Assembly (NCBI RefSeq): GCF_001049895.1
Contig: NZ_CVPE01000006.1
Coordinates: forward strand, 828,503 to 892,502
Reading direction: 5' to 3'
Length of the DNA: 64,000 nucleotides
Origin: Rubeoparvulum massiliense
GTDB taxonomy: Bacteria > Bacillota > Bacilli > Rubeoparvulales > Rubeoparvulaceae
A model generated the notes under the pieces. It saw only the letters and a list, made by a program, of their open reading frames with translations. It was not told the DNA's origin and made no database searches. The position numbers and the translations under genes were made by a program. Positions 1-723 of the stretch are shown here, in pieces. Position 1 is the first letter of the stretch. Every line of letters starts with the position of its first letter.

Positions 1-228
1 CTCTCCTATCGACATTATAGAACAGAATTATCAATTGAGAAAACAGAATTTATAAAATTGTTAATCACTTGAAACGAACTGGAGAAAAAAGACTTATAAT
101 TACTATAACAGATTGATTTTACTATTGATACAGTTTTATTATATGATCTCCAATACCTTATCTGCAACTATTTTCCACCATTTACACTGCCTATATGCTA
201 CAATATTGAAAGATAAGGAGGTTGTCTA

Positions 229-723
229 ATGACACAGACCAAAAAGAGCATTTTCCGAATCATAGCCCTCTTCATGTTTAGCTTGCTCATTATTTCTGGC
301 TGTAGTAGTCAAGATGAGAGCACTCCGATCATTCCTAATCAATTTAATGAAGGCACCCATCTGATTTTTCTCTTTACCGCACCTGGCTGAACACAATGCC
401 AAGGGCAACTGGTGCAGTTGCAAGAAGAATGGGAGCAGCTCCAACGCAAAGGGGTGCAGTTCCACGTATGGAATGCTGGTACCAGTGAAGAGAATCGACT
501 TCTTGAGGAACAGCTGAAGATCACCGCCTTTACCATTCAAGGCGATCCTGATCTGACACTTCATCGAACATTTGGCCTTACAGAGATTGAGAACAACTAT
601 GAATATGCATTACGAGGATATGCGATCATCCACCAAGGCACGCTCATTGAGGCGAAGGCAGTCCCACTCCTTTCTGATATGGCCGTACATATCGCTGATA
701 AGGCAGCGAAGCAGCAAAATTAG
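229..723 (+). CDS. Candidate selenocysteine-containing thioredoxin/peroxiredoxin-like lipoprotein (in-frame UGA = Sec54)
   Basis: The gene starts at ATG 229 behind AAGGAGG (215-221) and reads in one frame to TAG 721-723, interrupted only by TGA at 388-390 (codon 54). Residues 1-25 form a lipoprotein signal ending in I-S-G-C25. After it comes a beta strand ending in APG, then U54-T-Q-C57, which lines up with the CxxC/UxxC redox site of thioredoxin-fold and AhpC/TSA-like proteins. The downstream sequence (QLVQLQ, an FHVWNAG strand, a GDPDLTLHRTFGL helix) continues the same fold with no frameshift. A perfect 7-bp hairpin with loop GUG lies 15 nt after the UGA. Likely role: membrane-anchored thiol/selenol redox enzyme facing the outside. 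A plain nonsense mutation, or restart at GTG 412 behind AAGGG, is the alternative. A standard gene caller would report only the second half. Confidence 0.6.
405..421 (+). promoter_or_regulatory. Candidate bacterial SECIS hairpin
   Basis: Bases 405-411 (GCAACTG) pair perfectly with 415-421 (CAGTTGC), leaving the loop GTG at 412-414. The loop G lies 21 nt after the UGA at 388-390. Known bacterial SECIS elements sit immediately downstream of the UGA and have a short stem and a small apical loop with a G in its first two positions. This hairpin meets those rules. The lower stem is not convincing by eye. Confidence 0.5.

Follow-up and report, generated by a model that had tools for sequence, protein, structure and literature searches.

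A UGA-containing gene of Rubeoparvulum massiliense very likely encodes a small lipoprotein with selenocysteine in a UxxC motif, conserved among Bacillales

The gene at positions 229–723 of the window, i.e. of the whole 64,000-nucleotide stretch of DNA that was analysed, almost certainly encodes a genuine selenium-containing small redox protein, predicted to be lipid-anchored. Insertion of selenocysteine (Sec) into an exported redox lipoprotein is the reading that we hold with high confidence, and the in-frame UGA at 388–390 is itself very likely the site of Sec insertion, as judged from the conservation of this codon, the hairpin that follows it and the Sec machinery of the host genome. The features of the locus are the following:

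215–221, forward strand: Shine-Dalgarno sequence AAGGAGG, 7 nt before ATG 229 (direct sequence reading)
229–723, forward strand: predicted selenoprotein gene, 164 aa, lipoprotein with AhpC/TSA (peroxiredoxin) fold (translation; PF00578; structural model and PDB matches)
229–303, forward strand: predicted signal peptide and lipobox ISG-C25 (Cys25 invariant in a 26-row alignment; helix 5–23 in the model)
388–390, forward strand: in-frame UGA, read as Sec54, first position of UxxC (UTQC) (translation; TGA at the aligned codon in relatives)
397–399, forward strand: Cys57, second UxxC position (invariant; placed at the peroxidatic Cys by HMMER alignments to AhpC/Bcp peroxiredoxin chains)
405–421, forward strand: SECIS-type hairpin, 7-bp stem 405–411/415–421 and loop GUG 412–414 (in agreement with the bSECIS rules of PMC13188914)
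613–618, forward strand: codons of Arg129-Gly130, at the conserved peroxiredoxin Arg (invariant; aligned with the Arg of AhpC)

With TGA translated as Sec, the frame 229–723 yields 164 residues, with a single internal TGA at codon 54, in the context APG-U-TQ-C, and then ends at TAG. The sequence-only reading had described a frame open except for UGA 388–390 and a well-placed start; the translation bears out the former, and the position of AAGGAGG, 7 nt ahead of ATG 229, the latter. It is a solitary gene, flanked by a divergent ferredoxin-oxidoreductase-like operon on one side and by a convergent PAP2 gene on the other. A pattern scan of positions 1–900 reveals no terminator-like site, and no second in-frame UGA of the UxxC type stood out elsewhere in the window.

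Regarding the machinery, the host genome (2.84 Mb, 6 contigs, 97% complete) contains all four genes, selA, selB, selC and selD, for which a search had been proposed on the basis of the sequence. The tRNA-Sec gene scores 62.6 bits against RF01852 and is reported by ARAGORN as SeC with anticodon tca; selB, located about 5 kb from it, reaches 371 bits against a cut-off of 242, selA reaches 579 bits, and selD reaches 390 bits with one in-frame TGA (KSGUGCK). Taking into account this complete machinery together with the TGA-bearing selD, the genome makes Sec, and the gene at 229–723 is therefore not its sole user. As a separate observation, selD (L096:12866–13903; C6:224865–225791 and on) lies directly upstream of selA, and SelD is itself a selenoprotein.

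The distribution of tRNA-Sec in the class requires one correction to the sequence-only reading, which regarded selenoproteins as uncommon in Bacillales: tRNA-Sec is detected in 97 of 398 sampled class genomes, so that they are not very rare in the class. It is present in all eight TGA-bearing genomes obtained by profile search of this 398-genome sample, compared with the overall count given above, and in each of the 27 named genomes that were checked; none is detected in the genome of the Cys form (G085). In Alkalihalobacillus deserti (L090, G421), three tRNA-Sec genes score over the cut-off in one genome.

The first set of homologues was drawn from a sample of 399 class genomes, in which relatives occur in five other genomes. 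TGA is found at the same codon in divergent homologues with 23–34% identity: the relative in G019 (33% identity) reads FTSPT-U-PTC, and the copies in G255 and G095 read TYT-U-TLC and GVG-U-DFC, respectively. The relative in G085 (locus L028, SFTCSAC) carries Cys at the Sec position, SFT-C-SAC. Profile search of the class sample adds five further TGA-bearing copies; among the intact relatives in this sample, spread across several families, nine out of ten have TGA and one has Cys. An alignment of the Bacillaceae-type relatives, used as query against a named genome collection, retrieves 47 Bacillales loci from Bacillaceae, Fictibacillaceae and Paenibacillaceae, 46 of which show TGA at the aligned codon and the hairpin at the same place, a count that is not independent of that from the class sample because the two collections overlap in species. 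The remaining locus, L095, is degenerate. The window protein alone, used as a contig-search query, retrieves no relatives, and the host genome is the only one in its own family. Only one Cys homologue was found, with no further Cys forms in the order of the Cys-form genome; the searches gave no relatives on plasmids and no phage family. Position 54 of the homologues, at which Cys had been anticipated, is thus occupied exactly by Sec (TGA) or Cys and, as far as sequence comparison can do so, the homologues settle the selenoprotein reading. Neither of the two outcomes named beforehand as refuting it, a genome lacking selA/selB/selC or homologues with neither Cys nor Sec at this position, was obtained.

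These counts bear directly on the interpretation of the locus as a pseudogene, that is, an ordinary redox lipoprotein hit by a nonsense mutation. Under the standard code a stop does interrupt the gene, and the family does include broken copies (L029, with a frameshift, and the degenerate L095). Nevertheless, TGA at one and the same codon in 46 of 47 named loci and in nine of ten intact sampled relatives from several families, followed by an open frame with conserved residues in genomes where tRNA-Sec is present, refutes a pseudogene and leaves it practically no probability. The earlier argument that a random nonsense mutation would not be expected here is upheld by this same-codon conservation and by the conserved protein downstream.

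A few individual copies deserve mention. Ammoniphilus sp. YIM 78166 (G169, equated with it through its tRNA-Sec coordinates) has a second copy (L029:1346–1815) in which TGA occupies the Sec codon and the frame shifts by one base within the hairpin region, through either an error of sequencing or decay of the gene; an intact copy (L046/L088) is present alongside it, as are two tRNA-Sec genes. The degenerate locus of Fictibacillus nanhaiensis DSM 23009 (L095:3001–3442) lacks UxxC and contains stops, and intact Sec copies are present in two other F. nanhaiensis strains. In a tree of 11 clean sequences, the window protein groups with the G019 (Sec) and G085 (Cys) relatives with support of 100/99, apart from the Bacillaceae group; the Cys form is nested in an otherwise Sec-bearing set, in a tree with long branches and an arbitrary root. 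In a separate tree, built partly from gapped alignment rows, L051 falls within Cytobacillus although its record is titled Pseudomonas sp. ISL-84, which is probably a wrong label.

The hairpin proposed from the sequence, a perfect 7-bp stem with loop GUG 21 nt past the UGA, is borne out by both the letters and the folding. GCAACTG (405–411) and CAGTTGC (415–421) enclose GTG (412–414), with a UGA-to-loop spacing of 21 nt, and the element agrees with every bSECIS rule of PMC13188914: a stem of 4–16 bp, a loop of 3–9 nt, a UGA spacing of 16–37 nt, and G in the first two positions of the loop, usually followed by G or U. The total folding energy is ordinary (z −1.54; 19 of 200 shuffles equally good), and 18% of synonymous-codon shuffles match the folding energy of the hairpin; a mismatch-free stem of 7 pairs or longer appears in this stretch in only 0.3% of synonymous-codon randomisations. 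The hairpin alone is modest evidence for Sec, and it is the comparative evidence that decides.

Such comparative evidence is provided by 55 Sec sequences, which reduce to 23 distinct 21-mers. The stem occurs at the same site in all 23 and the loop begins with G in every one of them (GUU, GUG, GUC; GGU once). Across 22 distinct 42-mers, 90.3% of cells are paired, compared with 13–37% in slid registers, and the covariation score lies above 500 of 500 shuffles, which ignore relatedness. At stem columns 21/31, A-U is observed 10 times, G-C 10 times and G-U twice, with zero mismatches (Fisher p 7e-5 over distinct sequences, phylogeny uncorrected). These columns join the third base of a Gln codon to the first base of a Leu codon, and both changes are silent. 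The covariation rests mainly on this one pair, because four of the seven stem pairs are invariant and the QLVQL protein motif, which constrains the same bases, fixes part of the stem. In the Cys relative (G085) the hairpin is broken, with an A-C mismatch at columns 21/31 and the loop AUA.

Two further explanations can be weighed against the hairpin data. Translation could restart at GTG 412, giving a cytosolic protein of 103 aa and leaving the upstream part as a separate short ORF; a standard ORF does span 412–723, and automatic annotation may call it. This GUG is, however, the hairpin loop, at which most relatives have GUU or GUC and would be unable to start, and in all relatives the region ahead of it, with lipobox, core strand and UxxC, is conserved and stays in frame. 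According to the model, the domain would also be deprived of its first strand and of the active site. A restart is very improbable. Similarly, readthrough of the UGA as Trp or another amino acid, or general leakiness without Sec, would also result in a full-length protein. Other genes of the window terminate normally at UGA, the one relative lacking Sec has Cys in its place, TGA forms co-occur with tRNA-Sec and the hairpin is conserved, all of which makes readthrough highly unlikely compared with Sec insertion.

Turning to the selenoprotein itself, the product matches PF00578 (AhpC/TSA) with 30.8 bits against a cut-off of 26; four of five relatives tested are also above the cut-off, and the Cys form is just below it (25.8). 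In 26 sequences the invariant residues are Cys25 of the lipobox, Phe47, Thr50, Sec54, Cys57, Gln60-Leu61, Leu64, Arg129-Gly130, Gly137 and Asp150. The AlphaFold2 model (pLDDT 84.5, pTM 0.72) has a confident core, in which Sec54 is located at the start of helix 55–72, and among solved structures AhpC and Bcp/PrxQ come closest, with TM of about 0.6–0.65. In profile alignments Sec54 coincides with the Thr/Ser of TxxC in peroxiredoxins, or with the equivalent residue; the peroxidatic Cys is matched by Cys57, and the conserved Arg by Arg129. The fold matches and the profile alignments therefore indicate a protein of peroxiredoxin fold whose active site is UxxC. The redox UxxC protein of the sequence-only reading is retained in its motif and, through PF00578, in its redox character, and its plain thioredoxin fold gives way to that of a peroxiredoxin, in which Sec takes the Thr position of TxxC. 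The lipoprotein assignment is likewise consistent with the conserved lipobox residue Cys25, at which the protein is likely lipid-anchored.

The peroxiredoxin fold raises the possibility that the selenoprotein is mainly a peroxidase, with Cys57 as the peroxidatic residue assisted by Arg129 and Sec54 as the resolving selenol, in line with the alignment of Cys57 and Arg129 with their peroxiredoxin counterparts. In every member, though, the Thr/Ser of TxxC is replaced by Sec or Cys, so that the peroxiredoxin TxxC/TxxU motif is absent; known peroxidatic Sec peroxiredoxins are of the TxxU type (PMC13188914), and Sec as the first residue of a CxxC-like motif resembles the nucleophile of thiol-disulfide reductases. 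A predominantly peroxidatic role thus appears rather unlikely, and we infer with moderate confidence a disulfide reductase rather than a peroxidase; judged from sequence, disulfide reduction is probably, by a modest degree, the main activity.

Some indication of possible partners comes from the gene neighbourhoods of the relatives. A SCO1/SenC lipoprotein gene lies directly upstream in five Halalkalibacter/Alkalihalobacillus loci (L089–L093), a cupredoxin lipoprotein gene with a CuA-like CSxPCGxxHAxM motif lies downstream in seven Fictibacillus loci (L082–L087, L094), and a small cytochrome c lipoprotein gene lies upstream in six Neobacillus-type loci (L059, L064, L067, L068, L073, L076). All three neighbours are extracytoplasmic proteins of the respiratory-chain type, and none of their genes is present at the window's own locus. 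These contexts are clade-specific raw counts and constitute a lead only; redox work for the respiratory chain outside the membrane is a tentative and rather doubtful role.

Collectively, these findings suggest the following mechanism. SelB would bring Sec-tRNA-Sec to the ribosome and recognise the hairpin 405–421, as the machinery and the hairpin imply, and UGA 388–390 would be decoded as Sec. The product, given its lipobox, would be exported and lipid-anchored via Cys25 on the outer side of the membrane. There, Sec54 and Cys57 may form the selenol/thiol pair of the Prx-fold domain, cycling via a selenenylsulfide and reducing disulfides, possibly also peroxides, of extracytoplasmic partners. 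The likeliest job would be thiol/selenol-disulfide exchange outside the cytoplasm, where copper or haem proteins may be the partners; more weakly, the neighbour genes in relatives hint that the partners include copper- or haem-binding respiratory proteins needing reduced thiols. A still more specific proposal, that the family works with SCO1 and CuA-type cupredoxins and that selenium assists in reducing or metallating outer copper (and haem) centres in the Bacillales respiratory chain, is speculative, and we consider it improbable rather than likely.

The same selenoprotein family is found in dozens of Bacillus-like genomes, which adds a conserved selenoprotein subfamily to Bacillales, the spore-formers and their kin, where the selenoproteins described so far are few. 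As UGA resembles a stop codon, gene finders can be expected to truncate the gene or overlook it in dozens of genomes; in the window, automatic annotation is likely to give, in place of the true gene, the ORF 412–723, whose start codon GTG 412 lies in the hairpin loop. The near-complete conservation of Sec, together with a single Cys form in a genome with no tRNA-Sec detected, offers a clean natural experiment for asking why selenium is retained by a bacterium in a redox protein at its surface, and the neighbour genes give a testable idea of the partners of the selenoprotein.

Among known families, no NCBIfam model scores above its cut-off for the window protein. The best NCBIfam match over the UxxC region is the SelL-related redox protein NF040769 (E 2.5e-7), at 30.5 bits against a cut-off of 120; this model is also among the best matches for most relatives, with 17–36 bits against the same cut-off. 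The TUGYCR motif thioredoxin-fold (seleno)protein NF053656 resembles the family in its thioredoxin fold and Sec-containing motif and gives 12–16 bits against a cut-off of 100. SCO1/SenC lipoproteins, which adjoin the gene in Halalkalibacter relatives, are likewise lipid-anchored members of the thioredoxin superfamily, but PF02630 gives no match to the window protein at E<=1, and the neighbouring SCO proteins carry CPxxCP, in contrast to the UxxC of the selenoprotein. AhpC and Bcp/PrxQ peroxiredoxins share with it the fold, the position of Cys57 at the peroxidatic Cys and the conserved Arg, and the window protein differs from them in being putatively lipid-anchored and in having Sec in place of the Thr/Ser of TxxC.

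The lipid-anchored Bacillales subfamily is absent from the lists of PMC9312934 and PMC13188914, the latter of which contains no occurrence of the words lipoprotein, Bacilli or Bacillales, and no description of this lipoprotein family was found in the open-licence literature. The broad kind to which it belongs, PF00578 selenoproteins with UxxC, is known, and the lipoprotein subfamily is unnamed. The closest counterparts are the Prx-like thiol:disulfide oxidoreductase selenoproteins, which combine PF00578 with UxxC or UxxU (PMC9312934, PMC13188914). Common to both are the PF00578 domain and a UxxC motif with Sec first, whereas the proteins described here form a predicted lipid-anchored Bacillales subfamily of about 160–180 aa.
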